DNA from: Aliikangiella marina
Lineage (GTDB): Bacteria > Pseudomonadota > Gammaproteobacteria > Enterobacterales > Kangiellaceae
NCBI RefSeq assembly: GCF_007004765.1
Contig: NZ_VIKR01000007.1
Coordinates: 124,001-188,000 of the forward strand
Reading direction: 5' to 3'
Length of the DNA stretch: 64,000 bases
Below, in pieces: positions 6,521 to 22,961 of this stretch. The position numbers were made by a program, and so were the translations under genes. Positions within the stretch are counted from its first letter, which is position 1. Each line of letters starts with the position of its first letter. The notes below the pieces were generated by a model. That model made no database searches, was not told the DNA's origin, and worked only from the letters and a program-made list of their open reading frames with translations.

Positions 6521-6537
6521 TTTTGTCGCAAAATACA

Positions 6538-6566
6538 TTGCTTTTAACAATCAGTGTGATATAAAT
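6538..6566 (+). promoter_or_regulatory. Probable promoter of the FucP-GH3-halogenase operon
   Basis: TTGCTT (6538-6543), 16-17 base spacer, then TATAAA/ATAAAT (6560-6566). The operator at 6566-6579 abuts the -10 box and would cover the transcription start, the classical repressor position. Confidence 0.5.
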
Positions 6567-6579
6567 GAAAGCGCTTACA
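6566..6579. promoter_or_regulatory. LacI-type operator, site 2 of the divergent GH1/FucP region
   Basis: TGAAAGCGCTTACA, one mismatch from the perfect palindrome. Located directly downstream of the predicted -10 box of the plus-strand operon. Confidence 0.75.
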
Positions 6580-6668
6580 TTAGGTTAGAGGTAAAAAAGA
6601 TAAAGGTCAACCATTTAATCTAATGAGTCTAGAAATTGAGAAAACCTGCGTTTAAAGCAACAAAGTGA

Positions 6669-7955
6669 ATGGAAAACTATATGCCAAACTCACCTATCGC
6701 ATCAGAGGGTTTACCTGCGCAATCAGAGAGCAAACAGACATTCCGATTTGCCTTAGTCGCTTTAACATCTCTATTTTTTATGTGGGGATTTTTAACGGCA
6801 CTCAATGATATTTTGATCCCCTACCTCAAATCTCAATTTTCTCTCAGTTATACCCAGGCAATGCTTATCCAATTTTGTTTTTTTGGCGCCTATTTTTTGG
6901 TGTCACTCCCTGCGGGCGCATTGGTCCAGCGGATCGGATACCAGAGTGGCATCGTATTCGGTTTAATCATCGCCGGAATTGGGTGCTTGCTTTTCTATCC
7001 AGCGGCATCAATTGGGATCTATGGAATATTCTTGCTCGCATTATTCGTGCTGGCATCAGGAATTACTATTTTGCAGGTCTCAGCCAATCCTTATGTGACG
7101 ATACTAGGCGATCCCAAAACGGCTTCCTCACGGCTAACTCTAACGCAAGCTTTTAACTCGCTGGGAACAACACTAGCGCCATCATTTGGCGCAATCCTCA
7201 TCTTATCAACAATGGGAGAATCTAATGGCATTTCTAGTGATGTTGGTTCTCAAGATGCGGTCAAATTTCCCTACCTTTTGCTAGCAGGCGCTCTGCTGAT
7301 TTTAGCAATTGTGTTTGCGTTTCTTAAGCTTCCCAAGATTGCTCATGATACTCATTCAAACCAGGCTAAGTCACCGCATAAATCGGCATGGCGATATCGC
7401 CATCTCGTGTTGGGTGCAGTCGCGATTTTCGTCTATGTTGGCGCGGAAGTCGGCATAGGCAGCTTTTTAGTTAACTTTATTAGCCTGCGCTCAATTGCCG
7501 GAATAGAAGAGTCTCAAGCCGCCCACTATGTTACTTACTACTTTGGCGGTGCTATGGTTGGCCGATTTATTGGCGCAGCTGTCATGCAGAAAATTCCTGC
7601 AGGGAAGGCGTTAGCGTTTAATTCAGTATGCGCCTGCATCTTGATCACCATCGCAATATTCACTCAAGGTTTTGTCGCAATGTGGTCGATCTTATTGGTC
7701 GGACTTTGTAACTCAATTATGTTTCCAACAATTTTTACATTAGCAATCGCTCATCTAGGAATTTACACCAGCCAAGGCTCGGGTATTTTGTGCCTTGCGA
7801 TTGTTGGTGGTGCCTTTTTGCCACTACTTCAGGGAATAACAGCTGACAGTATCGGCATCCAAATGGCATTTTTCATTCCGTTGATGTGTTATCTGTATAT
7901 CGCTTACTACGGACTACTCGGACACAAACCCTCTTTTCAAAATAATCAAAAATAG
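6669..7955 (+). CDS. FucP/GluP-like sugar MFS transporter
   Basis: 428 residues with 12 predicted helices. The stretch [19 protein letters not shown] followed by [12 protein letters not shown] is typical of the FHS family (L-fucose permease FucP, glucose/galactose permease GluP). It probably carries a hexose, most likely glucose released by the GH3 enzyme encoded 3 bases downstream. The start is not certain: the ATG at 6669 has a poor ribosome binding site, and the in-frame ATG at 6681 is an alternative. First gene of a three-gene operon with GH3 and a halogenase homologue. Confidence 0.88.
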
Positions 7956-7958
7956 CTT

Positions 7959-10514
7959 ATGGAACTCAAATCTCTTAACAATAAACTGAAAATTCTAACT
8001 CCCTTGATCGCGACTAGCTTTGCGTTAGTGTCCTGCTCCCAAGAGAAAGCGCCCGACGCAAATATCGACCAAGCTGAACAACATGTTGAAGTGTCAAAAA
8101 CCGTCCCGGCGTTCTGGCCAGTTGTGGCTAATCCCATTCAAGCGGATCGTTCGACTGAAAAACGAGTTCAAGAAATTTTACAAAGCATGACTATCGAGCA
8201 AAAGATAGCACAAATGATTCAACCTGAGATTCGCTCGATAACCCCAGAAGACATGCGCAAATATGGTTTTGGTTCCTACCTAAATGGCGGGGGCTCATTT
8301 CCCAATCAAAAAAAACAATCTTCCATATCCGACTGGATAGATTTTGCCGAACAAATGTATCTGGCTTCCATCGACGCATCGATGGATGGCTCAACCATTC
8401 CGACAATGTGGGGCACAGATGCTGTCCATGGACATAACAACGTTATCGGCGCAACACTGTTTCCACATAACATAGGTTTAGGCGCAGCTAATAATCCGCG
8501 GCTTATCGAGCAAATTGCTCAAGCAACTGCAACTGAGGTCATGGTAACTGGAATTGACTGGATTTTCGCACCAACGGTTGCTGTCGTCAGAGATGACCGT
8601 TGGGGAAGGACTTATGAGGGCTACTCCGAAGATCCGGAGATCGTCAAAGCCTACTCAGCAGCAATCGTCCGCGGACTTCAAGGGCAAGGTAATCAGTTTT
8701 TAGGTGATGATAAAGTGATTGCCACGGTGAAGCATTTTTTAGGTGATGGGGGAACTGAAAAAGGCGACGATCAAGGAAACAACATCGCTAGCGAAGAAGC
8801 ACTCTATAAAGTGCATGCTCAGGGCTACATCGGTGGATTAACATCTGGCGCACAAACTGTTATGGCCTCTTTCAATAGCTGGCATGGGAAAAAAAATCAT
8901 GGTAGTTACTATTTACTCACTCAAGTTTTGAAAGATCGAATGGGGTTTGACGGTTTTATTGTCGGCGACTGGAACGGTCATGGACAGGTGAAAGGCTGCA
9001 GTAATGAAAGCTGCTCACAAAGTATCAATGCCGGACTCGATATGTTTATGGCACCAACCGATAGTTGGAAACCACTCTACTACAATACGCTTGCGCAAGC
9101 TAAGTCAGGCGAAATTCCAATGAGTAGAATAGATGATGCTGTCTCACGCATACTCAGGGTTAAAGTTCGGGCGGGACTATTTGATAAACCCAGTCCAGCG
9201 AAACGGCTTCTCTCTGGGAAAACTGAATTGATTGGGCATCCAGATCACCGTGCTATTGCTCGCCAAGCGGTTAGAGAATCATTGGTTTTGCTCAAAAATA
9301 AAAATAATCTCCTGCCTTTGCCACAAAATAAAAATATCTTAATCGCCGGCGATGCAGCCGATAATATTGGTAAGCAATCTGGCGGATGGACTATTACTTG
9401 GCAAGGTACAGGCAATACTAACAATGATTTTCCTGGAGCAACTTCTATTCTTGATGGTATTAAAAATAAGCTAGCCGATAGCGACGCGAATATTGAGTTT
9501 AGTCCACAAGGCAATTACCAAACCAAACCCGATGTAGCTATCGTGGTTTTTGGAGAGGAGCCTTATGCAGAAGGTAATGGCGACCTCGATAACCTCGAGT
9601 ATCAACGGGGTAACAAACGCGATTTGGCACTCCTAAAAAAGCTTAAACGCGATAATATTCCGGTTATCGCTATCTTCATTAGCGGTCGACCCATGTGGGT
9701 TAATCCAGAGCTCAATGCATCTGATGCATTTGTTGCGGCTTGGCTGCCTGGAACTGAAGGGCAGGGGATAGCAGATGTAATTTTCCGCAAAAGAAATGGA
9801 GAAGTAGATTTTGACTTTACCGGCAAGCTTTCTTTTTCTTGGCCAAACTCTCCTATTCAGACAACAGTCAATCGATATGACACACAATATAATCCATTGT
9901 TACCCTATGGTTTTGGATTAAGTTATAGCGACACCAATATTATTGCTGATAACCTAGATGAAGAAATAGAAACGCTCAATAGCGACTTAATTGCGCTCAA
10001 TCTTTTTAACGCGCCGTGGCGACCGGCAATTGTCAACGAATCCGATGTTGAGCTAATCACAAGTAATAATTTTAGCGGTACCAGTATTAAATACCAAACG
10101 ATCGATCGAGATACTCAGGAAGATGCGCGACGAATAGAGTTTACCGGTGACGCCAGAGTGATGTTTGAGATACAAGATAATTTTGTTTTCGACTTGCGTG
10201 GATATGCCGATGCAAATGCTGCACTATCATTTGACATTAGAAGAAACCATGCAGAGGAACTGCCATTATATTTATCGATGCGTTGCGAGCAGGAGTGTAA
10301 TCCAGCTATCGATTTATCAAACTTACTTAAAACCGCAGAGCGTAAGGCTTGGCAAACTGTTCAAATAGCGTTAGCCTGTTTTTCGAATAAAGGAGCAACA
10401 ATGGATAAAATCATCGCTCCCTTCGTTCTATCAACGAATAAACCACAAATTGTTGAGATTGCTAAACTAGAAATAACCACGACTAAGTCCAAAAATGTCA
10501 TTGAATGTCGATAA
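7959..10514 (+). CDS. GH3 beta-glucosidase, outer-membrane or periplasmic lipoprotein
   Basis: 851 residues. The N-terminus is a lipoprotein signal ending in LVSC (lipidation at C26). The GH3 N-domain contains the DRWGRTYEGYSEDP and KHFLGDGGTEKGDDQG blocks and the nucleophile Asp337 in GFIVGDWNGHGQ. The GH3 C-domain carries the acid/base region with EEPYAEGNGD. Residues after about 665 form an extra beta-rich C-terminal domain, as in ExoP-type marine exo-1,4/1,3-beta-glucosidases. It removes glucose from the non-reducing end of beta-glucan oligosaccharides at the cell surface. It lies 3 bases after the transporter and 18 bases before the halogenase gene. Asp at position 33 or later of the mature chain does not allow a firm choice between inner and outer membrane. 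Confidence 0.94.
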   Translation: MELKSLNNKLKILTPLIATSFALVSCSQEKAPDANIDQAEQHVEVSKTVPAFWPVVANPIQADRSTEKRVQEILQSMTIEQKIAQMIQPEIRSITPEDMRKYGFGSYLNGGGSFPNQKKQSSISDWIDFAEQMYLASIDASMDGSTIPTMWGTDAVHGHNNVIGATLFPHNIGLGAANNPRLIEQIAQATATEVMVTGIDWIFAPTVAVVRDDRWGRTYEGYSEDPEIVKAYSAAIVRGLQGQGNQFLGDDKVIATVKHFLGDGGTEKGDDQGNNIASEEALYKVHAQGYIGGLTSGAQTVMASFNSWHGKKNHGSYYLLTQVLKDRMGFDGFIVGDWNGHGQVKGCSNESCSQSINAGLDMFMAPTDSWKPLYYNTLAQAKSGEIPMSRIDDAVSRILRVKVRAGLFDKPSPAKRLLSGKTELIGHPDHRAIARQAVRESLVLLKNKNNLLPLPQNKNILIAGDAADNIGKQSGGWTITWQGTGNTNNDFPGATSILDGIKNKLADSDANIEFSPQGNYQTKPDVAIVVFGEEPYAEGNGDLDNLEYQRGNKRDLALLKKLKRDNIPVIAIFISGRPMWVNPELNASDAFVAAWLPGTEGQGIADVIFRKRNGEVDFDFTGKLSFSWPNSPIQTTVNRYDTQYNPLLPYGFGLSYSDTNIIADNLDEEIETLNSDLIALNLFNAPWRPAIVNESDVELITSNNFSGTSIKYQTIDRDTQEDARRIEFTGDARVMFEIQDNFVFDLRGYADANAALSFDIRRNHAEELPLYLSMRCEQECNPAIDLSNLLKTAERKAWQTVQIALACFSNKGATMDKIIAPFVLSTNKPQIVEIAKLEITTTKSKNVIECR

Positions 10515-10532
10515 ACTAAGCTACTTATACTT

Positions 10533-12095
10533 ATGACACAGCCATTAGTTAAAAAAATTGTAATTGTTGGTGGTGGCTCAGCCGGCTGGCTAGCTGCCGG
10601 ATTACTCGCTGCTGAGCACAATGCTTGTGCTGAAAACGGTATCAAAATAACCTTGATTGAATCACCCAACGTACCTGCTATCGGTGTCGGCGAAGGAACT
10701 TGGCCAACGATGCGAGAAACACTCGATAAAATTGGCGTTAGTGAAACTGATTTTTTTCGTTCATGTGATGCTTCTTTTAAGCAAGGAGCCAAGTTTTGTA
10801 AATGGGTAGATGGCAAAGACGATGATGCGTATTACCATCCATTGGTGATTCCTAACGGCTACACTAAAACAAACTTAGTCCATGCTTGGCAACACCACAA
10901 AGATAAAATCGCCTTTGCCGATGCCGTATGTTACCAAGGTCATTTATGTGAGCAAGGTAAAGCACCTAAACAGATTTCTACACCAGAATATGCATCAGTT
11001 GCCAACTATGCTTATCACTTAAACGCGCCGAAGTTAGGAGAGTTCTTAAAGCAACATTGTACTGAAAAACTCAATGTAGAATTGATTGTTGATCATGTTA
11101 TCGACATAAACAATGATGATGATGGCTATATTGAATCACTCACTACTCAACAAAATGGTCGACTTTTCGGCGACCTATTTATTGACTGTACCGGTTTGAA
11201 ATCTTTACTCCTAGGACAACACTATCAAATTCCATTTCAGTCAAAAAAAGATATTCTATTTAATGATAGTGCTTTAGCTATTCAAGTGCCTTACCAGAAT
11301 GAAGACGACCCAATCGCTTCCCACACCATCTCTACCGCTCAAAGCGCCGGCTGGATTTGGGATATTGGATTACCGACTAGGCGTGGTGTCGGTTACGCTT
11401 ATGCCAGTGACTATATTTCAGACGAAGATGCTGAAAAGGAATTAAGAGCCTATATTGCAGAAAAACTCGACCGAGATCGTGTTGATGAACTTACCGTTAG
11501 GAAAATTCAATTTAATCCCGGTCATCGAGAAAAATTCTGGCATAAAAACTGTGTGGCAATTGGTATGGCTGCCGGTTTTCTTGAACCCCTCGAAGCTTCA
11601 GCTTTAGTTTTAATTGAGCTGGCTATTGCTAAAATTAGTTTAGATTTACCGGCAAACCGCGAAGTAATGGCAATTGCAGAAAAGCGTTTTAACAAGCTCT
11701 TTTTATATCGCTGGCAAAGAATTATCGACTTTTTAAAATTACATTATGTATTGACCAAACGAGAAGATACCAGTTATTGGTGCGACAATTGTAAACCTGA
11801 AACAATCCCTGATTCACTCAAAGAGATGTTAACTTTCTGGAAGCACCAACCGCCAAGCCCACATGATTTTACACATATCAACGAAGTCTTTCCGTCAGCA
11901 AGCTGGCAATATATTTTATATGGTATGGGGTTTGAAACACTTCCTAGCCATACCGATCGGAAAACCAGTGACTACGAAAAAGCGATTAATTTCTTCCGCG
12001 AGACTCAACAAACGACCCATCAATATTTAGATGCATTACCGAGTAATCGAGAATTGATCAATAAGATATTAAAATATGGAATGCAAAGCGTTTAA
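10533..12095 (+). CDS. Flavin-dependent (tryptophan) halogenase family protein, variant motif
   Basis: 520 residues, cytoplasmic (no signal). The FAD-binding GGGSAGW motif is at the N-terminus. The lysine needed to handle hypohalous acid is present in ASFKQGAKF, and the glutamate region in GFLEPLEASAL. The diagnostic WxWxIP motif of classical halogenases reads WIWDIGLP here, as in a subfamily common next to TonB-dependent receptors. Third gene of the FucP-GH3 operon, so it is expected to be induced by beta-glucosides. Neither substrate nor halogenating activity can be inferred; it might be a flavin monooxygenase with another role. Confidence 0.88.
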   Translation: MTQPLVKKIVIVGGGSAGWLAAGLLAAEHNACAENGIKITLIESPNVPAIGVGEGTWPTMRETLDKIGVSETDFFRSCDASFKQGAKFCKWVDGKDDDAYYHPLVIPNGYTKTNLVHAWQHHKDKIAFADAVCYQGHLCEQGKAPKQISTPEYASVANYAYHLNAPKLGEFLKQHCTEKLNVELIVDHVIDINNDDDGYIESLTTQQNGRLFGDLFIDCTGLKSLLLGQHYQIPFQSKKDILFNDSALAIQVPYQNEDDPIASHTISTAQSAGWIWDIGLPTRRGVGYAYASDYISDEDAEKELRAYIAEKLDRDRVDELTVRKIQFNPGHREKFWHKNCVAIGMAAGFLEPLEASALVLIELAIAKISLDLPANREVMAIAEKRFNKLFLYRWQRIIDFLKLHYVLTKREDTSYWCDNCKPETIPDSLKEMLTFWKHQPPSPHDFTHINEVFPSASWQYILYGMGFETLPSHTDRKTSDYEKAINFFRETQQTTHQYLDALPSNRELINKILKYGMQSV

Positions 12096-12178
12096 ATGGG
12101 TATTAACGGATTTTCTATCACCGCAAGCCATCATCCAGACGAACAACTATTTTTAACTCATCTCATACTTGGTTCAAA

Positions 12179-12922
12179 TTAGTCAATAAGCCGAATTTTC
12201 CCAAAACCACTCGCATCTTTATAACCAAGGTTTTTATCGCCATTGACAGGTGTAATCTCATGGGAACCCACAAAATGCTCTCTTCTCATAGAGCCGTCAT
12301 TATCACAGTAAGCCAGCATAAAACCGATTTTTTTATCTTTGCTTAGATATACGCGAGAAGCATTCTTTTCTTCTTCAGGTGAGAATTTGTCACTAAAAAG
12401 TTTGATGGCGACTTCCCAGGTAATGGTATGTGGTGCGGTTTCACCTCTTTTCCATTGGCTTTTGACATGGTCGTTTAACAAAAGGAATTGTTCATTGCCA
12501 TTGGCATCTTTCTCACCAATATCGACTGATTGATTATCTAGGGCGATATGATAGGCAAAAGCATTATAGTTATATAAATGATCACCGCCTGATGCATCTT
12601 CGTCAATAAATACCTCTAAGCAATCATCGTCCCAGTATTGTTTTAAGGGATCGGGACGAGCATCAAATAAAACGTCATCTTGGATTTCAGCCAGCAGATA
12701 TAAATAGTTTTCATCCCAACGCAATTTGTAACGCCCGCTAAAATCACTTTTATCCGGGAGATCACCAATAATCGCTTTATCTATAAGATACCAGTCATCT
12801 CCTTGCCATGGCGTTTGTTCCGCAATACCATCAATGATTGGCGCAACCTTTGCCTTAGGTACTTCCTGAGCAGGCAAATTAGCCGCAATAAGCAACAACG
12901 ATAGGTTAACGAGCTTTTTCAT
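12179..12922 (-). CDS. Secreted CBM9/DOMON-like sugar-binding protein
   Basis: 247 residues with an N-terminal signal peptide (KKLVNLSLLLIAANLPAQ). The body starts with the typical APIIDGIAEQTPW block and contains YLYLLAEIQDDVLFDARP and DDDCLEVFIDEDASGGDH, features of the CBM9-like family that binds reducing-end sugars. It ends the cellobionate operon: its ATG overlaps the gluconokinase stop by 4 bases (ATGA). Context suggests it holds cellobionate or cello-oligosaccharides in the periplasm (inference). A related, shorter protein is encoded at 48088-48714. Confidence 0.8.
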   Translation of the reverse strand: MKKLVNLSLLLIAANLPAQEVPKAKVAPIIDGIAEQTPWQGDDWYLIDKAIIGDLPDKSDFSGRYKLRWDENYLYLLAEIQDDVLFDARPDPLKQYWDDDCLEVFIDEDASGGDHLYNYNAFAYHIALDNQSVDIGEKDANGNEQFLLLNDHVKSQWKRGETAPHTITWEVAIKLFSDKFSPEEEKNASRVYLSKDKKIGFMLAYCDNDGSMRREHFVGSHEITPVNGDKNLGYKDASGFGKIRLID

Positions 12923-13440
12923 TGTATAAATTCGCTTTGTTTTAGTTGTTTAAATGATAATGCCAATAAATCATTGAGTTCAAGATCATCGGTTAACCGA
13001 ATGATATCTGCTTCATTACTGGGATCTTCCATTGCTTTAAATTGGGAGTCCAATAACTTTGGGTTAAAGAAATGATTTTCTCGCTGATTTAACCTTGATG
13101 CAATGACGGCTTGTGATAGGTCGATGTAAAGAAAAGCAACAATAGCATTTAATTCTCTTAACATTTGACGATGAGTCGATTTAAGACCAGAGAATGATAA
13201 AACACAATTACTACCACTATCCGCCTTTAAAAATAATTCACGACATATCATGTTTATCCATGGCAATCTATCAGCGTCATTCAAAGCTATCCCTTTCGCC
13301 ATTTTTTGCTTATTCACTTCACTGTGGAAGTCGTCCGCTTCAACAAAAGACCAATTAAGTGTATTCGCAATTGCTTGCGCCAATGAAGTTTTACCGCTTC
13401 CACTGACACCCATAACGACAATTAATCGAGAGTCCTTCAT
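12919..13440 (-). CDS. gntK: Gluconokinase
   Basis: 173 residues, the usual length of GntK. The P-loop GVSGSGKT is at residues 11-18, followed by the family block FVEADDFHSEVNKQKMAKGIAL and NDADRLPWI. It phosphorylates D-gluconate with ATP to 6-phosphogluconate. Both ends overlap neighbouring genes by 4 bases (ATGA), so it is translated together with the GH94 phosphorylase. That pairing explains its job: gluconate is the second product when cellobionate is phosphorolysed. Confidence 0.95.
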   Translation of the reverse strand: MKDSRLIVVMGVSGSGKTSLAQAIANTLNWSFVEADDFHSEVNKQKMAKGIALNDADRLPWINMICRELFLKADSGSNCVLSFSGLKSTHRQMLRELNAIVAFLYIDLSQAVIASRLNQRENHFFNPKLLDSQFKAMEDPSNEADIIRLTDDLELNDLLALSFKQLKQSEFIQ

Positions 13441-15833
13441 ACGAATTTGTTTTCATTGACTATCGGAATGAGAACCCGCAGCTGATATTCCTTACCCGGC
13501 TGAATATTAGTCACTTTGGCCGTGTCTAGTAATTTATTATCCAAATAAACTTGTTGAGAAACTACATTTTCGTCCCGCTCAACTTGCATGTTAAAAGTCG
13601 CCTCTTTAAATCGTCTTGTCACTTGCATAATATTCCAATGACTGGGAAGTTGAGGATTAACTAACAGATCGCCTTGAGAACCTTTTAAGCCACACAAGTT
13701 TTCTATCACGCAACGATAATACCAAGCCGTTGTACCGGTATTGATTAGTTGGCTTGAGCGACCCGCAACTTCTGGCAATTGATGATAAGCACCTCGATAA
13801 TAATTAGGTACAAATAGCGGTAGTTGACCTCGACGCTCAATATTGGAACCGTCAGGGATCATAGTCCGCAACACTCGAAACGCTTTATCACTATAATTTT
13901 GTTGATACAAACTATAAGCATAAAAAGCGGCCGCATGATTATAGACAGAACCGTTCTCAGCAACACCGGGAAATTTTTGGGTAATTCGACCGATATCCTC
14001 AACCATTTGAGTATAACTCGGTGCCAACATCATAACACCATCTGGTGTTTCGAGATTGGCTTCGATTGCTTCTAACAGTTGATTCATTTTGACTGAATCT
14101 GCGGCTCCACTTAACATCGCCCAGCTTTGTGGATTTAAGTAGATTTTTCCTTCTTCATCGTCGCTAGTACCAAATACCCGGCCGTTATCAGTGATCCCCC
14201 TGGCATACCATCCATCAATCCAGCAATAGTCATTAACTGCTTTATTAATTTCTTGAGCCTTCTCAATCAAATCTTCGGCTTTGTCTTCTTTACCGGATTG
14301 TCTACAAATTTTCGCCCAAACATTCAGACTATATGCTGTTGCAACCGAAAGCCAAGATGAGACACCGATGCCCTTTACACCGACCATATTCATGGGGTCG
14401 CACCAGTCACCCTGCTCGATATAACTTAAACCGCGCTCGTCCCTTGCATTCACCAACCAAATGATTGAACGCTCGATGTGCTCTCTGACGGTATGCCTAT
14501 CACTGCAATCTGCATACGGAATTTTTTCTTCTAGTAGCTGATAATCATTCATTTCATCTAAATAAACCTCTAACAATAACGGTAGCCAAACACAATGATC
14601 AGTATGTGGAATTTGATTGATGTACTTAAGCTCAGCTTTTGGGTTCAACAGGATTCCATCGGGCATCGCGCCGCTTCTAAATTGTTGGCTTAATGCCTTG
14701 ACTAGCGCATGACGAGTTGCATTGCTGTCGAGATAACACATACCTAAATTATCTTGTAAATAATTTCTGGTCTGTGGGTCACTCGTCATACGGTTGACTC
14801 GGCCGTGGTAATAAACTTGTCGAGGTAGCCATTGATTGACAAAACGATCGAAATCCGGATCTGGCGTCTCAATCTGTAATACATCAGGCCCTGTCATACT
14901 AGCAGTTTTAAAAGCGTCAAATTTTAGCTTTGAAGAAGCCGTTTCGTTTTGTTCAAAATAGAATCGCTTAAATTGCTTTACGTCTTCGATATCTTTCGCC
15001 GGACCAAAAAGATAGTTAAGTTGAGTTTCTTTTTTTGGATTGATTTCGATATGATGATGCAATATGGCTGCCGGAGTCTGATAATTCGCCGAATCATTGT
15101 TTAAAATTTCTTGCTTAAGCGCTTCTGGATTATGTAATCCATTTGTCCCTTCAAATGCCGCAAGCTGAGCACAATACGAATCTATTTTTTTATTCGATAA
15201 AAGAAAAGTAAGGTCCTTAAAATCTTTCTGTTTGTAGTAGTCCTCTGTTTTTTGATAGGGTGCAATGCTCGAGGCAATAATGCCATTCAATTCACTAGAG
15301 AAACTCGCTGACTGGTTCATCCATGACATATAGCCGATCGAAAAATAAGGATATACGTTTATCTTTTTGACTTTATTCGTTTGATTAATTATCTTCAGCG
15401 ACCATAATTCTACTACGTCTTCTTTGGCTAATTGAAGACTGATTTTATATTTCAGTCCACCGTGTTTAATTCGCCAACAAATATCATTTTGACCAACAGA
15501 AAACTCAAAAGACTCTAACTGACTTTTGACCGGAGCAAATGGTATTGATATCAAAGAATCCTTATTTTCTTCTTTGATATAAAAAAAACGTCCCGGATGA
15601 TGCGCATAAAATTCTTGCTCGGGCATCATAAAAGTTTTCGCTTCAATATTTGGGCCATAGGAATATTTAGAAGCATCATGTTGCATATACTGGCTTTTGA
15701 CATAGCCCGCACAATTCACCTGAAGCAACATTTTTTTATTCCATAAATATCCACTCGCTTGATCTAACTCAGTTGGCGAAGTAAGCGTTATACGTTCTTT
15801 TGTAGAATAAAATAGATCAGATTGTTGAGACAC
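13437..15833 (-). CDS. GH94 phosphorylase, probably cellobionic acid phosphorylase
   Basis: 798 residues, no signal peptide. It has the GH94 layout: a beta-sandwich N-domain (about 1-290) and an (alpha/alpha)6 barrel. The catalytic-acid region reads GDWCDPMNMVGVKG (residues 475-488, Asp479 the likely general acid), where classical cellobiose phosphorylases have DWND. Later blocks LPNYYRGAY-like and INTGTTAWYYRCVIENL are typical of the family. The enzyme splits a beta-1,4-glucoside with phosphate to alpha-glucose-1-phosphate. Coupling with gluconokinase strongly favours cellobionate (4-O-glucosyl-gluconate) over cellobiose, giving gluconate as the second product. Inference rests on context plus the altered active-site motif; biochemical proof is missing. 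Confidence 0.85.
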   Translation of the reverse strand: MSQQSDLFYSTKERITLTSPTELDQASGYLWNKKMLLQVNCAGYVKSQYMQHDASKYSYGPNIEAKTFMMPEQEFYAHHPGRFFYIKEENKDSLISIPFAPVKSQLESFEFSVGQNDICWRIKHGGLKYKISLQLAKEDVVELWSLKIINQTNKVKKINVYPYFSIGYMSWMNQSASFSSELNGIIASSIAPYQKTEDYYKQKDFKDLTFLLSNKKIDSYCAQLAAFEGTNGLHNPEALKQEILNNDSANYQTPAAILHHHIEINPKKETQLNYLFGPAKDIEDVKQFKRFYFEQNETASSKLKFDAFKTASMTGPDVLQIETPDPDFDRFVNQWLPRQVYYHGRVNRMTSDPQTRNYLQDNLGMCYLDSNATRHALVKALSQQFRSGAMPDGILLNPKAELKYINQIPHTDHCVWLPLLLEVYLDEMNDYQLLEEKIPYADCSDRHTVREHIERSIIWLVNARDERGLSYIEQGDWCDPMNMVGVKGIGVSSWLSVATAYSLNVWAKICRQSGKEDKAEDLIEKAQEINKAVNDYCWIDGWYARGITDNGRVFGTSDDEEGKIYLNPQSWAMLSGAADSVKMNQLLEAIEANLETPDGVMMLAPSYTQMVEDIGRITQKFPGVAENGSVYNHAAAFYAYSLYQQNYSDKAFRVLRTMIPDGSNIERRGQLPLFVPNYYRGAYHQLPEVAGRSSQLINTGTTAWYYRCVIENLCGLKGSQGDLLVNPQLPSHWNIMQVTRRFKEATFNMQVERDENVVSQQVYLDNKLLDTAKVTNIQPGKEYQLRVLIPIVNENKFV

Positions 15834-17187
15834 TTGCAGATTCCTTTTCCGCTATTCGTCGCTCAGACAATTCTGTTTGGATGCTTTCAAGTTTATATTG
15901 GTTAAGCGGGTATAAACTAACTATCCAAACAGCAATAAATGCAAACACACCAGGAATGACGGTGAGTAACCAAACAATTCCTTGTTCTGACGCACCACTC
16001 TGAACTTGATTCGCTTCATACCCGAAAGATGCAAGGACATAACCCATAATCGCACCAGCAATTGCACCACCGACTTTTTGAGAAAAAGCAGCGGCAGAAA
16101 AAACCATTGCTGTTGCTCTACGACCATTTTGCCATTCAGAATAATCGGCCGTATCGGCATACATGGAGAATACTAAGGGTGATTTAGGACCAAGACATAG
16201 ACCAATTAAGATCTGCAAAGTAAACATTAATCCGATTTGATCTTTCGGAATAAAATAAAACGCGGAGGAAAGAACCGCGACAGCCAACATCAAATAGAGG
16301 AGTAACTGTCTTTTGTCGAGCAAACGAGTCAATAAAGGAGTGACAGCTGCGCCAATTGCTAAGGCGATCATATAGGCCGTCGCGAAAGCACCGATTAGAT
16401 CTTCTCTACCTACATAATACTTAAAATAAAAAGTACCGCTGCTTGCACGCAACGTAATCGTTAACATAATGATCAGCGCAAGCGAAAATAAAACAACCCA
16501 TGGTCGATTATGAAGCAAGTCGGCGATGTCTTGGCCAATACTCGACTGTTGGTTTTTAGGCGGACTAATTCTCTCTCGCGTTGTTAAGAAGCTGGTAATA
16601 AATAACAGTGCGGCTATCAAACCATAAACAGCCATGGTTAGCTGCCACCCCCTAGCCTCATCTTCACCACCTAACCATGAGACCAGTTCCGGCGTAAAAT
16701 ACGCGACCAAGGTACCACCGCCAAAGGCGCCGATAAATCGAAAGCTTGTAAGACTGGTTCTATCTTGAGTATTGTCGGTTACAACACCCAACAACGCGCC
16801 ATAAGGCACATTAATAAAGGTATAGGCCAACATCATAAAAATATAACTGGCATAGGCCCAGACTAACTTTCCATCTTCATCTAAGTTGGGCACAGTAAAG
16901 GTTAAAATACCTGCAGCTACCATCGGAATGATACCCCAAATTAAATAGGGGCGGAATTTACCAAAACGAGTATTGGTTCTATCGGCGAGGGCCCCCATCA
17001 TAGGATCACTAAACGCATCGATTAATCTTGTTACTAACATCATTGTGCCAACCGCAGCAGCGGAGATTCCAAACACATCAGTAAAGAAAATAAACAAAAA
17101 GACATCAAAAATTCGCCAGTAAAAATTTGATGCAATATCGCCACAGGCATAACCCAATTTTTCTTTTAATCTGATTTTTTGCTGCAT
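15817..17187 (-). CDS. GPH-family symporter, probable cellobionate importer
   Basis: 456 residues, about 12 helices, with GPH landmarks KLGYACGDIASNFYWRIF, TRLIDAFSDPMMGALADRTNTRFGKFRPY and DYSEWQNGRRATAMVF. First gene of the operon: its end overlaps the start of the GH94 gene by 17 bases, so the two are coupled. It is clearly related to, but shorter than, the GPH protein at 3473-5020. A LacI-type operator lies 41 bases upstream of the start. Position with GH94 and gluconokinase suggests transport of aldobionates (inference). Confidence 0.88.
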   Translation of the reverse strand: MQQKIRLKEKLGYACGDIASNFYWRIFDVFLFIFFTDVFGISAAAVGTMMLVTRLIDAFSDPMMGALADRTNTRFGKFRPYLIWGIIPMVAAGILTFTVPNLDEDGKLVWAYASYIFMMLAYTFINVPYGALLGVVTDNTQDRTSLTSFRFIGAFGGGTLVAYFTPELVSWLGGEDEARGWQLTMAVYGLIAALLFITSFLTTRERISPPKNQQSSIGQDIADLLHNRPWVVLFSLALIIMLTITLRASSGTFYFKYYVGREDLIGAFATAYMIALAIGAAVTPLLTRLLDKRQLLLYLMLAVAVLSSAFYFIPKDQIGLMFTLQILIGLCLGPKSPLVFSMYADTADYSEWQNGRRATAMVFSAAAFSQKVGGAIAGAIMGYVLASFGYEANQVQSGASEQGIVWLLTVIPGVFAFIAVWIVSLYPLNQYKLESIQTELSERRIAEKESASVSTI

Positions 17188-17227: not shown

Positions 17228-17241
17228 AGTAAGCGCTTTCA
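17228..17241. promoter_or_regulatory. LacI-type operator of the cellobionate operon
   Basis: AGTAAGCGCTTTCA, two mismatches from TGTAAGCGCTTACA. It lies 41 bases upstream of the transporter start at 17187, in the 93-base gap to the second halogenase gene. Confidence 0.7.
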
Positions 17242-17280: not shown

Positions 17281-18771
17281 TTAAATCGGATTTGCTTTGC
17301 AGTAATGGTCAATAAACTGCTGATGTGTCGGCATATTGGTTAGCTGACTATCGACCTGATTTCGGAGGATCATTAAAAACCTGTCCAACTCACCATCGGG
17401 CATCATATCTACAATTTGATGGTAATTATCCGGCCTAACTCGCTGACCGAGCATCACTTGAGTCCAGGAGTCAATTTTGAATAGTTCCGTGTCAGTAATA
17501 CAGACTCGTCCGGTATCTTTAAACAATCGCATACGATGAGCGAGCGTTTCAGGTACTGTCATGTGCTTACAATATTGCCAGAATGAAGAGTCTTCTCTTT
17601 CTGTCGCCTTGTAGTGCAAAATAATAAAGTCTCTAATCCGTTCCATTTCTTCAATATATTGACGATTATATTCGTCAACATTCGATTGGCTGATTTCGTT
17701 GTGAGGAAATAAACGCATCAAGCGCAAAACAGCAGACATAATTAAATGAATCGCGGTCGACTCGACTGGCTCTAAAAATCCACTTGATAACCCAATCGCG
17801 ACACAGTTTTTAACCCAGCCTTTTTTGCGGGTTCCTGTTTTATATTTTAAAACTACGGGATCGGTAATCGCTTCGCTTTCCAAATTACTCATAATGGTTT
17901 CTTGGGCAGTTTCATCCGAGGCAAACTCACTGCAATAAACCAAGCCATTACCCACACGATGCTGCAGTGGAATTCGCCATTGCCAACCAAAATCATGCGC
18001 AATTGCCTGGGTGTAAGGTTTTGGGTCACCATGCTTAACGGTTTGCACAGGAACTGCTGAATCACAAGGGAGGTAGCTTTGGTAACTCTCAAATCCAGCC
18101 TCTAAAGTTTCTTCAATTAGCTTAGCCGCGAAGCCACTACAATCAATGAAAAAATCACCAGCTATTTTTTGTCCATTGCTTAATTCGACAGATTCTATGT
18201 ATCCGTTTTCAGTATTTTGATGAACTTGGGTAATTCGACCTTCAATCCATTTTAACCCGTTAGTCATCGCAAACCTTTTTAAATAAGCGGCATAAAGTCC
18301 AGCATCAATATGATAAGCATAGTTAAGCTGTATATCTTTGTTAAAGCCGAATTTACCCGCTTTCGCAGCTTTGAGCTCTAAGCAGTAGTCGCCAAATTCA
18401 TTTTGTATATTTCTTTCTAGACCGCCTAACCAAAAATGCTGAAACTCTCCAGCCCAACAAACTTTTCCTGTTGCGCCAAAAGAATGAATGTAACTGTCGC
18501 CACGCTCACCCCAGTTTTGAAATTCAATACCCAACTTAAAAGTTGCCTGGCATGAACGCATAAAATCTTGTTCATTAATACCCAATAATTGATTGAATAC
18601 TCTCAACGGCGGTATTGTTGCTTCACCCACACCAATTCGACCGATCTCTTCGGATTCGATCAGCGAGATATCAAGATTTTTTCCCAACAGCTTGGCTAAT
18701 GCCGCACCTGCCATCCAGCCAGCACTACCACCACCAACAATTACAACTTTTTGAATTCTGTTATTGGACAA
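17281..18771 (-). CDS. Flavin-dependent (tryptophan) halogenase family protein, canonical motifs
   Basis: 496 residues, cytoplasmic. The FAD motif GGGSAGW is at residues 12-18 and GVGEATIPP follows. The catalytic lysine lies in ATFKLGIEF, the canonical WxWxIP is present (WQWRIPLQ), and the conserved glutamate region is GFLEPVESTAIH. All residues known to be needed for halogenation in PrnA-type enzymes are in place. Directly downstream of the SapC gene (19 bases), in the receptor-SapC-halogenase arrangement seen in several marine and freshwater proteobacteria. The substrate is unknown; such enzymes may act on free indoles or modify another small molecule or peptide. Confidence 0.9.
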   Translation of the reverse strand: MSNNRIQKVVIVGGGSAGWMAGAALAKLLGKNLDISLIESEEIGRIGVGEATIPPLRVFNQLLGINEQDFMRSCQATFKLGIEFQNWGERGDSYIHSFGATGKVCWAGEFQHFWLGGLERNIQNEFGDYCLELKAAKAGKFGFNKDIQLNYAYHIDAGLYAAYLKRFAMTNGLKWIEGRITQVHQNTENGYIESVELSNGQKIAGDFFIDCSGFAAKLIEETLEAGFESYQSYLPCDSAVPVQTVKHGDPKPYTQAIAHDFGWQWRIPLQHRVGNGLVYCSEFASDETAQETIMSNLESEAITDPVVLKYKTGTRKKGWVKNCVAIGLSSGFLEPVESTAIHLIMSAVLRLMRLFPHNEISQSNVDEYNRQYIEEMERIRDFIILHYKATEREDSSFWQYCKHMTVPETLAHRMRLFKDTGRVCITDTELFKIDSWTQVMLGQRVRPDNYHQIVDMMPDGELDRFLMILRNQVDSQLTNMPTHQQFIDHYCKANPI

Positions 18772-18790
18772 AACAGCTCCTTAGTATTGA

Positions 18791-19528
18791 TTATTCTTGT
18801 CGCAAAAAAATTCGCTGATTTTTCATTTCAATTAATTTTCTCATATTGCCTAAGGAAGCAACGACTGAATAAGCGGCTTGTAGATAGCCATTCTTGTTGA
18901 GCTCCTCTAACGCATCGCCTTTAAGGTTCAACAGTCTATCCTCATGGATCGTGTAGTTACCCGGTATTTTAATCGCTTGCCCACTATCCAGTTGAATGTC
19001 TAGATTGACTGGCTCAATTAAACCAAAACGATTGAAACTCTCAAACATCGCCTTACTAAATTCGATGCCTTTGTGTATGGCAAGTAGATATCGGTTAATT
19101 TTCTGAGTGAACTGAGTCGCTTGGCCATCACTATCAAATAGCGACTCGCCTTCAAGCTCACTTATTTTAGGACTCGAAGTATCAATACTAATAATTGGTT
19201 CTTGTTTACTTTTACCAATTGGTCGTTGATCTTGATAAGAAATCACAAAAGGTCCTCGGGCAAACGCTAAAGGAATATAATTTCCCTTCCACCTTTGATT
19301 ATCTAAAAATAAGTTTTCATCTTCTCGTAACCCCAATAATAAAATTGAGCAAAATTCTCCCGTGTCAGGATCTTTACGAAAAAAAATGGGGTATTCGAGC
19401 ATAACGCTACCATATTCAGTCGGGAAGGTGAGGGCGCTTCCTACGTCATCCCCAAGTACCTTGGACTGGTGGGTTACAACCCTTAAATTCTTGTGCGTCA
19501 CATTATTTAAAACTTCTATGTTAGCCAT
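18791..19528 (-). CDS. SapC family protein
   Basis: 245 residues, no signal peptide or membrane helix. Blocks ALTFPTEYGSVMLEYPIFFRK and IPLAFARGPFVIS match the SapC family (PF07277), named from an S-layer gene cluster but of unknown biochemical role. Members are usually found beside TonB-dependent receptors and halogenase homologues, as here. It is separated from the receptor gene by a strong terminator, so it probably has its own weak promoter or depends on read-through. It lies 19 bases upstream of the halogenase gene and forms a pair with it. Confidence 0.85.
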   Translation of the reverse strand: MANIEVLNNVTHKNLRVVTHQSKVLGDDVGSALTFPTEYGSVMLEYPIFFRKDPDTGEFCSILLLGLREDENLFLDNQRWKGNYIPLAFARGPFVISYQDQRPIGKSKQEPIISIDTSSPKISELEGESLFDSDGQATQFTQKINRYLLAIHKGIEFSKAMFESFNRFGLIEPVNLDIQLDSGQAIKIPGNYTIHEDRLLNLKGDALEELNKNGYLQAAYSVVASLGNMRKLIEMKNQRIFLRQE

Positions 19529-19610
19529 AATGAATTCCCCAAATTACTCTCTCACTAAGCATAATTTAAAAATATCTTACTCAAAAGCCCTAGTATTTAA
19601 AAAATGTTTA

Positions 19611-19649
19611 AAAAAAGGCCGCTCGAATAGGGAGGTATTCGGCGGCCTA
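19611..19649 (-). terminator. Intrinsic terminator after the TonB-dependent receptor gene
   Basis: Long hairpin: AGGCCGC / GCGGCCT, a one-base bulge, then CGAATA / TATTCG with a six-base loop, followed on the minus strand by a T6 tract (19611-19616). It lies between the receptor gene and sapC. Confidence 0.85.
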
Positions 19650-19674
19650 AATTCTAACTGCATGTTGAATGATG

Positions 19675-22600
19675 TTAGAAAGAGTATCTGACGCCTAAAC
19701 TGTAGCGAGCGCCATATTCCTCTAGATTCCACATTTGAACGCTTGTTCGCCCATGGACTCTAAAGTTTTCTTCGGTCAAGTTGATGCCTTCAAATTGAAT
19801 GGTCAAATCTTCGTTAAACTCATAACCAACACTCAGATCAACTTGCGAATATTCCTCAACAAATCCTGGCTCGGAGGCATATCGAGCGGCACTGTTAAGA
19901 AAGTCATCTCGCCAGTTGTAACTCAAGCGCGCATTCCAACCAAATTTTTCATACATAAAGACCACGTTTGCGGTATCGCTAAGTCCTTGCAATGCAAACT
20001 GAGTAACATCCGGTGCTGCAGACAAATCAAAACCAACATCTCCATCGACGGTTGTGTAGTTCGCTTGAATACCGAAACCAGACTCGCCAAAGAAGTGTTG
20101 GACAGCGATTTCAAATCCATCGATTTGTGCTTCTTTATTGTTAACTGGCGCTTGATATAAAAATTGCATCAAAGGATCGTCAGCATTAGCAGAAATATCA
20201 ACTGCGGCTTCAAACTCATTCGCTGTCATTGAGAAATAATCTACGCCTAGCTGATTAGCAGCCATCATCGAGAATAAATTGGTTTCATTAACAGTTTCGC
20301 CAATCGCTTGCAAATCAGCAATCGCTTGTTGAGCTCTCGGTCCGGCACTAGGGTCTCTCAAACCATAAAAGTTTTGAACTATTGGTGCGGTGCCGATGAA
20401 ATTACTCACGTCTTTTAAGTAATAACCAATAGAAAAGTAACTTGATTCATCAAAGTAATACTCGGCTGATAGATCAAAATTTTCCGACTCTAAAGGCACC
20501 AGAGCCGGATTGCCACTTGTGGCACTGCCGGGCTGAGCATTGCCTAGTATTGTCGGTGTTGAAGGTCCGCCCGTCACTGTGGCAGCAGAACTTAAGTTAC
20601 CAAAGCTTGGTCGTGCAATTGTTTTACTATAAGAAAAACGTGCAATTACATCCTCAGCAAGTTCAATATCAAAATCGAGATTTGGTAGGAAATGATCATA
20701 GTCATTCGACAAAGTATAGTTTTCTTTGTTATCAGACGAGCCTGCGATTACTCGGAAATCATTATTAGATTCCCAAAGCACTTCTTGGGGTATCGCAATG
20801 TTAGCTGTAGATTTTGACGTCGTATCTTCATAGCGGAACCCAATGACTAAATTGTAGGGCTTTCGATTCCAATCACCTTCAAATCGAAATTGCGTATAAA
20901 CAGAAGTGACTTCTTCTTCGATCAAACGATTCGTCTGCTCATCAGGGTTTCGATTAAACGCAAAGCCATACAAATTTGCGGCCCACGCGCCAATCATTGC
21001 AGCATCTCCACGAAATCCTTGTGTCCAAGCGCCAGCGGTACTGTAATCACTGTAAACATTGGCAAAGTTGACTGGCGTTAAGAAACCAGCAGGTAATTCG
21101 CCCGGGTTTTCTACTCCCCAGTTGCCCATAGTGTCGTTGATATTTGATTGAATGGTATGGTTTGACATGTCGCGCATTTCAATACCGAAATCGACACTGA
21201 AATCATCAAAATCAAAGGTACCATCAATTCGCGTTTGTTGAATATCACTATAATTTTCTGAAAATGCTCGCTGTTGAATAGACGTTCCGACATCATCTTG
21301 ATCAAATTGATTATTACAGTTCAATCCAATTCGTGGGTCGCAATCATCAAACTCGACAATCATGGTTGGCAACCCGTTGTTATAATTAGCCCCCTGAGCA
21401 GCGACCACATTAGCGCCTAAACCAACTTTCAAGAAATTACCATAGCCTTGAGTCGGTGTCGTTTCTGCGGAGGAATCATGATAATCGAATGCCAGACGAA
21501 AACGATCATTAACATCCCATTCGAAATTGAAGCCAATTGAATCAGTGACCGTTTCAGCATTTTGATTGATCTGTGCAACGGCAATATCTCTCGGTGCTAA
21601 ATCAAACCGATCCTCGCGATAAATAATCGGCGTCCGGCTAACACCATTATCGAAAGTTAAAGCACTTTTGTATTCGGCATACCAAATAGACAACTCAGAT
21701 CGCTCTTCGTTTTGATCTAAGTTTGCGTAGGTATAATCGAGAGTTGCCGTCATATTACTTTTCGGCTTGAACTGCATTGTTAACTGCGCATTCGTTCTTT
21801 CCCGCTCTCGATCTGCCATATAGTAAATTAGGTTAGAGGGTAGAGCGTGCGTATCACCGATTGCAGGCTCATTGGTGAAAACAGTCGGGTTGTTAGGATC
21901 GATATCTGGGACCGTTCCATCCCAAGGAGAAGAACGCCATTGGTCAATGGTGGCGCCTGCAACACCGCTGTCTCTTTCCGAAAAACTCGCATTTAAAGAC
22001 ATTCCAAATGTTTTTTCCGGATTTGCCCAACTGACAATTCCAGAAACCTCTGGAGTAACATCTGATCCTTCGAATACTGTCGTATCATGCACTAACGTTG
22101 CGCCGACACTCGCGACAAAATCCGGATTATCCAGTGGTTTCGCCGTCACGATATTTATCGTTGATCCCATACCACCTGAAGCAATATTCGCTTTACCCGT
22201 TTTAAAAACTTCAATCGACTGAACAGCATCAGATGACAAGTTTTCGAAACTAAAAGCTCGAGTATCAGAAGCGCCCCCGCCACTTGGGAGTGAAGACCCC
22301 GGCATCGTACGTCCATTTAAGGTAACCATATTAAACTGAGGGCCAAACCCTCTAACCGTCACTTGACTACCTTCTCCGTTTTGCCGATTGATAGACACGC
22401 CAGATATTCTCTGTAATGATTCTGCGAGATTAGTATCTGGAAATTTACCAATATCTTCCGCTGTTATTGCATCAACGACACCGATTGCATCTCTTTTCTT
22501 GTTCATGGAGCTCATTAAGCTCCCGCGGATCCCCGTGATTAAAACGACTTCGCCTGCATCTTGCTCTTCCCCGGTTTCGGTATCTGACTCGGCGGCATAG

Positions 22601-22680
22601 AGAGGATTCATGGCCATTGTGCCGAGAATGAGCGACAAACTTGCAGCGATGGGGGTTTTACTGAATTTATTATTCTTCAT
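19675..22680 (-). CDS. TonB-dependent receptor (carbohydrate type)
   Basis: 1001 residues with a signal peptide (about residues 1-29, ending in NPLYAAE). The plug begins with VVLITGIRGSLMSSMNKKRDAIGVVDAI and contains DTNLAESLQRISGVSI. The protein ends in an aromatic residue (YSLGVRYSF), as outer-membrane barrels do. Blocks match the long Xanthomonas/Caulobacter-type receptors used for plant or algal oligosaccharides. The ribosome binding site GGAGG is at 22692-22696. Two LacI-type operators flank a 125-base leader. The substrate is inferred to be a beta-glucan fragment from the neighbouring enzymes. Confidence 0.95.
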   Translation of the reverse strand: MKNNKFSKTPIAASLSLILGTMAMNPLYAAESDTETGEEQDAGEVVLITGIRGSLMSSMNKKRDAIGVVDAITAEDIGKFPDTNLAESLQRISGVSINRQNGEGSQVTVRGFGPQFNMVTLNGRTMPGSSLPSGGGASDTRAFSFENLSSDAVQSIEVFKTGKANIASGGMGSTINIVTAKPLDNPDFVASVGATLVHDTTVFEGSDVTPEVSGIVSWANPEKTFGMSLNASFSERDSGVAGATIDQWRSSPWDGTVPDIDPNNPTVFTNEPAIGDTHALPSNLIYYMADRERERTNAQLTMQFKPKSNMTATLDYTYANLDQNEERSELSIWYAEYKSALTFDNGVSRTPIIYREDRFDLAPRDIAVAQINQNAETVTDSIGFNFEWDVNDRFRLAFDYHDSSAETTPTQGYGNFLKVGLGANVVAAQGANYNNGLPTMIVEFDDCDPRIGLNCNNQFDQDDVGTSIQQRAFSENYSDIQQTRIDGTFDFDDFSVDFGIEMRDMSNHTIQSNINDTMGNWGVENPGELPAGFLTPVNFANVYSDYSTAGAWTQGFRGDAAMIGAWAANLYGFAFNRNPDEQTNRLIEEEVTSVYTQFRFEGDWNRKPYNLVIGFRYEDTTSKSTANIAIPQEVLWESNNDFRVIAGSSDNKENYTLSNDYDHFLPNLDFDIELAEDVIARFSYSKTIARPSFGNLSSAATVTGGPSTPTILGNAQPGSATSGNPALVPLESENFDLSAEYYFDESSYFSIGYYLKDVSNFIGTAPIVQNFYGLRDPSAGPRAQQAIADLQAIGETVNETNLFSMMAANQLGVDYFSMTANEFEAAVDISANADDPLMQFLYQAPVNNKEAQIDGFEIAVQHFFGESGFGIQANYTTVDGDVGFDLSAAPDVTQFALQGLSDTANVVFMYEKFGWNARLSYNWRDDFLNSAARYASEPGFVEEYSQVDLSVGYEFNEDLTIQFEGINLTEENFRVHGRTSVQMWNLEEYGARYSLGVRYSF

Positions 22681-22742: not shown

Positions 22743-22756
22743 TGTAAGCGCTTTCA
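22743..22756. promoter_or_regulatory. LacI-type operator in the receptor leader
   Basis: TGTAAGCGCTTTCA, one mismatch from the perfect palindrome, 63 bases upstream of the receptor start. Spaced 55 bases centre to centre from the next copy, which would suit looping by a tetramer or two dimers. Confidence 0.72.
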
Positions 22757-22766
22757 GTCCTACTTC

Positions 22767-22798
22767 AAAAAAAACCAAGATCGACTCCTGGTTTTTTT
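22767..22798 (-). other. Hairpin with T tract in the receptor leader (possible attenuator)
   Basis: On the minus strand A7-CCA and TGG-T8 pair around an 11-base loop, lying between the two operators. It resembles an intrinsic terminator, but only three G:C pairs support it, so termination may be weak. It lies inside the predicted leader of the receptor mRNA. Confidence 0.35.
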
Positions 22799-22811
22799 GT
22801 AAGCGCTTACA
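22798..22811. promoter_or_regulatory. LacI-type operator at the receptor promoter (perfect palindrome)
   Basis: TGTAAGCGCTTACA, a perfect 14-base palindrome and the reference copy in this window. It sits directly downstream of the predicted -10 box of the receptor promoter. Confidence 0.8.
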
Positions 22812-22930: not shown

Positions 22931-22961
22931 GATAGAATGTTATAACTACTTGTTTTTTATT

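Follow-up and report, generated by a model that had tools for sequence, protein, structure and literature searches.

A cellobionic acid phosphorylase operon with a free CBM9-like protein, probably part of a BglR-type cellobiose regulon, in Aliikangiella marina

Four overlapping genes on the minus strand of the Aliikangiella marina genome raise the question of whether they serve the use of oxidized cellobiose (cellobionate) and, if so, what a CBM9-like protein is doing among them. They lie in a 64,000-nucleotide stretch of contig NZ_VIKR01000007.1 (positions 124,001 to 188,000), hereafter the window, and encode a GPH-family cation symporter (15817 to 17187, 456 amino acids; TIGR00792, 398 bits against a cut-off of 231), a GH94 enzyme (13437 to 15833, 798 amino acids, GTG start), a gluconokinase of the GntK/IdnK type (12919 to 13440, 173 amino acids; TIGR01313, 149 bits against a cut-off of 114), and a single-domain CBM9-like protein (12179 to 12922, 247 amino acids). 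The overlaps of 17, 4, and 4 bases on which an earlier sequence-only reading had built its case for a cellobionate operon are borne out by the open reading frame coordinates. We consider it likely that the locus is the oxidized-sugar limb of a BglR-type cellobiose regulon, with the GH94 enzyme as its cellobionic acid phosphorylase (CBAP) and the symporter as its presumed cellobionate importer.

The GH94 enzyme and its conserved operon

Among solved structures, the GH94 enzyme matched 4zle over nearly its whole length (990 bits, E 7.2e-297, 53.7% identity over 778 columns), ahead of chitobiose phosphorylase (203 bits), cyclic glucan synthase (162 bits), and the best cellobiose phosphorylase (153 bits). 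The supersandwich and catalytic domains, PF06165 and PF17167, both scored over cut-off (202 bits against 27 for the latter), and NCBIfam gave no match for this enzyme or for the CBM9-like protein. 4ZLE is the CBAP of Saccharophagus degradans (Sde_0906), and XCC4077 is the Xanthomonas campestris enzyme (PMC8950772). Every one of the 86 distinct CBAP-clade rows, those of A. marina and 4zle among them, has Q347, C471, D472, R609, and K613 (numbered as in Saccharophagus); fragments and repeats of the A. marina sequence and of that of locus L043 were left out of this count. D472 we take to be the catalytic acid, and R609 and K613 presumably bind the gluconate carboxylate; the catalytic Asp and the acceptor-site residues of the characterized CBAP are all kept. 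The DWCDPMN motif from which a CBAP had originally been proposed is present, and five other aligned GH94 proteins (eight match rows from related genomes) have Asn at the Cys position, 471, and lack R609 and K613; one further GH94 match, L016, is absent from the residue alignment.

Phylogeny agreed with the residues. In a tree of 43 rows chosen by hand from 101 aligned ones, built by a quick method with SH-aLRT support and without bootstrap, the A. marina enzyme joins Colwellia enzymes (SH-aLRT 86) within a CBAP clade that excludes the five other GH94 rows (SH-aLRT 100), none of which is a cellobiose phosphorylase of known activity. Were the enzyme a cellobiose phosphorylase and its gluconokinase neighbor incidental, it would sit suitably beside the GH1 and GH3 genes of the same locus, and it would be the only GH94 to do this work: a search for a second GH94 in the 5.34-Mb genome found none, with a single PF17167 match. 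Such a role is very improbable, given that full-length identity of 54% to 4zle and the CBAP residue pattern stand against 22 to 29% identity to other GH94 proteins of related genomes and that a gluconokinase lies near CBAP in many distant genomes; a cellobiose phosphorylase identity was rejected on the bit scores, residues, and tree taken together. As judged from sequence, the assignment to the CBAP family is strong, and no near characterized relative settles the exact acceptor preference. The gluconokinase is a fitting partner for such an enzyme, and it is the sole clear GntK-type protein found in the genome, in a search that gave one other, weak match (30% identity) and did not extend to gluconate kinases of the FGGY type. 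From the known reactions of these families, the products of phosphorolysis would be glucose-1-phosphate and gluconate, as had been predicted.

The operon recurs in other genomes. A scan of named genomes for CBAP found 517 relatives, with 80 loci kept and some of these cut by contig ends; a CBM9-like gene follows the gluconokinase in 5 of the 80 (L017, L021, L028, L043, and L050, from Colwellia and Kangiellaceae), and in a further one (L045) the contig ends before the point where the gene would lie. We also surveyed 394 genomes of the order, counting as strong a CBM9-like match with an E value of <1e-80 (31 genomes) and as CBAP a match with an E value of ≤1e-150 (35 genomes); 19 further genomes with weak, partial CBM9 matches (E 4e-7 to 7e-4, mostly in much longer frames) were excluded from the 31. 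The two genes occur together in 16 genomes against 2.75 expected (Fisher p 5e-11, which is only indicative, as the genomes are not independent), and in all 16 the matches are adjacent, 29 to 688 bases apart. Within the family, the CBM9-like gene was found in 4 of 40 genomes and CBAP in 4 of 37, the same four genomes in both cases. Of the 16 loci with both genes, 14 were examined: the GPH symporter precedes CBAP in every one, and nine have a gluconokinase gene placed between those for CBAP and the CBM9-like protein. Because this gene order recurs in other genomes, the four-gene arrangement is more than chance. That all CBAP operons carry a CBM9-like gene is ruled out by the counts of 5 in 80 named loci and 16 in 35 CBAP genomes of the order survey.

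A shared operator and the surrounding locus

A LacI-type operator, TGAAAGCGCTTACT (17228 to 17241), is found in the 93 bases that precede the symporter gene. The underlying palindrome, TGWAAGCGCTTWCW, recurs at 6507 and 6566 (6507 to 6520 and 6566 to 6579, both in the gap between the GH1 and permease genes) and at 22743 and 22798 (22743 to 22756 and 22798 to 22811, both upstream of the TonB-dependent receptor gene), the last of these being the perfect palindrome TGTAAGCGCTTACA; a common operator thus stands before each transcription unit of the locus. The pattern GTAAGCGCTTNC gave seven strand-wise matches at those five places against 0.05 expected, and WGWAAGCGCTTWCW occurs five times in the whole 5.34-Mb genome, each time within this 20-kb locus. 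These five copies of a single palindromic operator, the sole ones found in the genome, mark out a private 20-kb regulon of the LacI type.

The genes around these sites are those of a BglR-type set. In Shewanella, the BglR regulon comprises bglAI-bglT-bglR, divergent from glcP-bglAII, together with ompBgl, and binding sites are predicted ahead of these units (PMC2996990). The A. marina locus likewise has a LacI-family regulator, BglR-like by position and the presumed repressor of the whole locus (2383 to 3384, minus strand; PF00356 and PF13377), a second GPH symporter, BglT-like by position (3473 to 5020, minus strand; PF13347, E 1.5e-87), and a GH1 beta-glucosidase, BglA-I-like by position (5021 to 6364, minus strand; PF00232, E 2.6e-142). 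Divergent from these run an MFS sugar permease (6669 to 7955, plus strand; PF07690), presumed to be GlcP-Bgl-like because it occupies the position in the gene order that glcP-Bgl has in Shewanella (PMC2996990), a presumably exported GH3 exo-beta-glucosidase with an ExoP C-terminal domain, BglA-II-like by position (7959 to 10514, plus strand; PF00933, PF01915, and PF18559), and a tryptophan-halogenase-like flavoprotein that is convergent with the four-gene operon (10533 to 12095, plus strand; PF04820, E 1.7e-117). Directly upstream of the operon and on its strand lie another tryptophan-halogenase-like flavoprotein (17281 to 18771; PF04820, E 5.4e-181), a SapC-family protein (18791 to 19528; PF07277, E 3.3e-64), and a TonB-dependent outer-membrane receptor, OmpBgl-like by position and presumed to take up oligosaccharides (19675 to 22680; TIGR01782, 638 bits against a cut-off of 310). 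The four-gene unit first proposed is real; its limits of 12179 to 17187 were drawn too short, missing the receptor cluster at 17281 to 22680 and the operator shared with the GH1 and GH3 genes.

The locus is bounded by an AbgT gene (676 to 2220) and by glycine-cleavage genes (from 23002). Terminator-like sites numbered 18, against 8.6 in shuffled sequence, and those at 22914 to 22982 bound the locus sensibly; a sigma-70 promoter scan returned 22 sites where 29 were expected and is therefore uninformative. The two flavoproteins that flank the operon (10533 to 12095 and 17281 to 18771) differ from each other, and related loci also contain genes of this type together with SapC and TonB receptors. 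Elsewhere in the window (28254 to 32114), the frames of two proteins that resemble acetyltransferases and of an ABC transporter overlap or abut, and nothing obvious links them to the locus.

The operator accompanies the operon in other genomes. In 13 of the 14 related loci with CBAP and CBM9-like genes it is found no more than about 450 bases ahead of the frame for the symporter, the receptor, or the LacI protein; the 14th (L163) has a one-base variant, TGTAAGCGGTTACA, at 4612, 68 bases before the symporter frame. In one such locus (L166), a relative of the A. marina LacI protein (390 bits) is encoded divergently from the GPH-CBAP-CBM9 genes. All five Colwellia-type loci with upstream sequence, L045 included, carry the operator, against 2 of the 74 other named CBAP loci. 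Counted per genome over 80 genomes, TGWAAGCGCTTWCA was present in 16 of 16 genomes with both CBM9-like and CBAP genes, in 14 of 15 with the CBM9-like gene and no CBAP (not in G125), and in 4 of 30 with neither, these controls being the handles G064 to G099 found in neither match list.

Fold, distribution, and possible role of the CBM9-like protein

Pfam assigned CBM9_1 (PF06452) alone to this protein at E values up to 1 (129 bits against a cut-off of 23, E 2.7e-37). Its N terminus is hydrophobic, and a pattern search found no lipobox in any of 35 aligned rows; a soluble, exported protein is therefore likely, and the earlier description of it as secreted holds as a prediction from these two features. 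An AlphaFold2 model built from six sequences had a mean pLDDT of 66. The top Foldseek match of this model was 1i82, the Thermotoga CBM9 with cellobiose (E 4e-10), and a second aligner placed the CBM9 structures 1i82, 7nwn, and 7nwo at Z 16.4 to 16.9, with an rmsd of 2.5 to 3.0 over 164 to 170 residues and 23 to 25% identity. A putative Bacteroides carbohydrate-binding protein followed at Z 12.6. Below it came 2ivf chain C (ethylbenzene dehydrogenase, Z 10.5), 7b04 chain O (nitrite oxidoreductase, Z 9.3), and a cellobiose dehydrogenase cytochrome, 4qi3 (Z 5.0), a resemblance that would suit a heme-binding, DOMON-type cytochrome donating or accepting electrons in cellobiose oxidation as in cellobiose dehydrogenase. 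The 2ivf and 7b04 chains, which we take to be heme-binding subunits, rank fifth and sixth by fold; such a cytochrome is disfavored all the same and is barely credible, since the CBM9 structures stand far above the heme-type folds in Z score and in identity (23 to 25% against 6 to 10%) and CBM9_1 is the only Pfam family returned.

In 1I82, Trp71 and Trp175 form an aromatic clamp and Asn172 contacts glucose (PMC8280721). By profile alignment, Trp71 corresponds to W97, invariant in all 35 rows. The partner of Trp175 could be placed at position 234 only by counting back from the C terminus, in a part where the model is unreliable; this position is Tyr in 29 rows, Phe in 4, Trp in 1, and another residue in 1, the exception being row L140, which is out of register at its C terminus. 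The same count puts Asn172 at N231 (33 of 35 rows), a placement that would likewise fall where the model is poor.

The conserved residues go beyond what a lectin needs. D82, D87, D99, D100, E103, D107, H115, H125, H152, R159, E170, D207, D209, R214, and E215 are present in all 35 rows, and the protein is single-domain and predicted to be secreted, so that an enzyme or helper, for example, a lactonase opening periplasmic cellobiono-lactone, with the CBM9 fold as mere scaffold, has to be considered. We know of no catalytic precedent for the CBM9 fold, and the top fold matches are sugar-binding modules, which makes an enzymatic role quite improbable; some of the invariant polar residues may coordinate calcium, for which known CBM9 structures have sites (PMC8280721).

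Distribution bears most directly on whether the protein binds cellobionate in particular. CBAP is absent from 15 of the 31 strong carriers, among them G170, a genome only 82% complete; this count rules out a strict tie between the two genes. Beside the CBM9-like gene in 14 of these 15 loci, no GH1, GH3, or symporter was seen by eye or by comparison with the A. marina proteins; one locus (L150) has a permease weakly like that of A. marina (172 bits) a few genes away. In the remaining locus (L143 in G170, 8067 to 15341), the operator lies 102 bases before the CBM9-like frame and again between GH3 and GH1, a GPH symporter adjoins, and no CBAP is nearby; here the CBM9-like protein seems to be part of cellobiose use only. 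In G194, of the same genus (g21) as G170, the complete operon adjoins a DiaA-like gene (named by eye), the place at which G170 has the CBM9-like gene with GH3, GH1, and GPH. Family f6 offers a similar contrast: G139 and G238 (loci L156 and L161) carry GPH-CBAP-CBM9 between YceI-like and MutY-like genes, named by eye and with one further gene, and G107, G177, and G247 (loci L140, L144, and L150) have the CBM9-like gene alone at that place. On the CBM9 tree of 35 rows, linkage to CBAP changes six times by parsimony and at least four times by the starred branches. Loss of CBAP with retention of the CBM9-like gene seems to us the simpler story for the genomes that have the latter alone.

The sequence-only reading had raised cellobionate binding by the CBM9-like protein as something to test. 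In a dedicated binder of cellobionate, the pocket would have shifted from a cyclic reducing end toward the open-chain acid, and the protein would hand cellobionate to the symporter. It adjoins CBAP in 16 of 16 genomes with both, pairwise CBM9 and CBAP distances correlate over 20 loci (rho 0.52, matched by 1 of 2,000 permutations), and conserved basic or polar residues perhaps lie near the pocket (H125 and R214 in 35 of 35 rows, K230 and N231 in 33 of 35). We nevertheless think a dedicated aldonate binder unlikely, and a role specific to cellobionate was not supported: there are the 15 carriers without CBAP, the changes of linkage on the tree, and the operator that the CBM9-like gene shares with GH3 and GH1 in L143. 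CBM9-symporter and CBAP-symporter distances moreover correlate just as well over the same 20 loci (rho 0.54 and 0.53), so shared descent may explain the CBM9-CBAP correlation. Since 15 genomes keep the CBM9-like gene without CBAP, 14 of them with the operator, the protein probably serves beta-glucoside use in general. A further reading, which we hold less likely than not, would make it a stand-alone periplasmic lectin of a new kind in the BglR regulon of marine gammaproteobacteria, recruited to the cellobionate operon and kept where CBAP was lost; between the TonB receptor and the cation-driven symporter, it would play a part comparable to that of the solute-binding protein of an ABC importer.

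Proposed pathway and comparison with known systems

The order of steps that we propose follows from the known reactions of these families. Cellobionate, and perhaps longer oxidized cello-oligosaccharides, would enter through the TonB receptor. The CBM9-like protein, soluble and either periplasmic or released, would bind the chain ends of beta-1,4-glucosides and so retain these sugars in the space between inner and outer membrane, serving the whole regulon and not CBAP alone. The GPH symporter would then import cellobionate into the cytoplasm, where the GH94 enzyme would convert it, with phosphate, to glucose-1-phosphate and gluconate, and the gluconokinase would phosphorylate gluconate to 6-phosphogluconate, which would feed the Entner-Doudoroff or the pentose-phosphate pathway. 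The LacI regulator (2383 to 3384), in response to a presumed effector, would repress the operons of the symporter and the receptor, as well as the GH1 and GH3 genes, through one operator; with a single operator for all units, cellobiose and cellobionate use would be induced together.

Several observations weigh against this proposal of a cellobionate limb in a BglR-type regulon. The characterized Saccharophagus and Xanthomonas enzymes form a separate 28-row branch (SH-aLRT 99), apart from the A. marina GH94, so a shifted acceptor preference is possible. Position Q347 is not diagnostic: it aligns where chitobiose and cellobiose phosphorylases are reported to have Arg (PMC5309861), but in the five other GH94 proteins we found Glu in three and Gln in two, so that this residue alone proves little and the column is unsure for distant rows. 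Five of the 14 loci with CBAP and CBM9-like genes have no adjacent gluconokinase. For the operator, the pairing with the LacI gene is presumed from position and analogy only, and 14 of the 15 CBM9-like genes without CBAP have no operator in the stretch around the gene. TGWAAGCGCTTWCA is equally common in CBAP genomes without the CBM9-like gene (18 of 19, not in G386), and the operator therefore tracks beta-glucoside or cellobionate use rather than the CBM9-like gene; two of the four operator-bearing controls (G069 and G088) belong to genera with CBM9-positive genomes, so kinship confounds the comparison. For the CBM9-like protein itself, the model is weak, with pLDDT below 50 around both clamp positions, and the published CBM9 work describes a preference for the reducing end and a lesser response to a reduced (alditol) end, as in cellotriitol (PMC8280721), which argues against a strong aldonate preference.

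Where the cellobionate comes from was considered through the genome's own enzymes. One family search found no AA10 lytic polysaccharide monooxygenase (LPMO) in the genome, nor was a GH9 found; GH6, GH48, and cellobiose dehydrogenase (GMC) were not searched for. There was one marginal GH5 match, over cut-off only with its neighbors in frame. With no AA10 LPMO or GH9 found, cellobionate would come from oxidation by others, as the sequence-only reading had supposed, or from sugar dehydrogenases, and A. marina is probably a scavenger of it. The genome has four matches to the GSDH family of PQQ-type sugar dehydrogenases (L169 to L172), at least two with export-like N termini by eye. It is speculation that these might oxidize cellobiose and so provide an aldonate source of the organism's own.

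The CBAP pathway and the BglR regulon are both already known, and the pathway occurs here in an unexpected family (Kangiellaceae); what is new is the setting, under an operator confined to this locus. No CBM9-like partner in such an operon was found in the literature searched, which leaves out most subscription papers, and neither was the union of CBAP and a BglR regulon under one operator with a free CBM9-like protein; the novelty first claimed for the partner thus stands within that literature, although the pathway is of a familiar kind and the link to the regulon had been missed. In the sea, the flow of carbon through oxidized cello-oligosaccharides, as formed by LPMOs and sugar dehydrogenases, is poorly mapped, and the locus would tie the use of these sugars to an ordinary cellobiose regulon in a likely scavenger. 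It also puts a name to a small, conserved protein, predicted to be secreted, with a directly measurable ligand, and natural contrasts are available among related genomes, some of which carry this CBM9-like gene together with CBAP and others without it.

Compared with the CBAPs of Saccharophagus (Sde_0906, 4ZLE) and Xanthomonas (XCC4077), the A. marina enzyme shows full-length homology, 54% identity to 4ZLE, and the same key residues; it differs from them in its place on the tree, where it shares another branch with enzymes of Colwellia and Kangiellaceae, and unlike most of the 80 named CBAP loci, its operon carries a CBM9-like gene and a BglR-type operator. Neurospora crassa uses CBT-1, CAP, and a gluconokinase, and an engineered yeast required added gluconokinase to use cellobionate (PMC4537572). 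Transport, phosphorolysis, and gluconate phosphorylation are common to that pathway and the one proposed here, whereas the former is fungal, has its own MFS transporter, and, in the accessible part of the account, comes with no mention of a CBM9-like protein (PMC4537572). A glucosidase route to cellobionate also exists elsewhere, since its use by Escherichia coli rests on AscB (PMC4403981). The CBM9-like protein has its best sequence and fold matches in 1I82, the CBM9 of xylanase 10A from Thermotoga maritima, and in 7NWN and 7NWO, from Caldicellulosiruptor kristjanssonii; it differs in being a free single domain with an export-like N terminus rather than a xylanase module, and it is longer (247 amino acids against 189 to 215 in the chains of those structures), with a second clamp residue that is probably Tyr, Phe, or Trp at position 234. 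Closest in layout is the Shewanella BglR regulon, which shares the gene order, the divergent promoters, the LacI-type regulator, and the TonB receptor (2383 to 10514 and 19675 to 22680 in A. marina; PMC2996990). Its account, as far as accessible, does not mention cellobionate, and the term CBM is absent from the main text (PMC2996990). To that layout A. marina adds an operon of symporter, CBAP, gluconokinase, and CBM9-like protein under the same operator.

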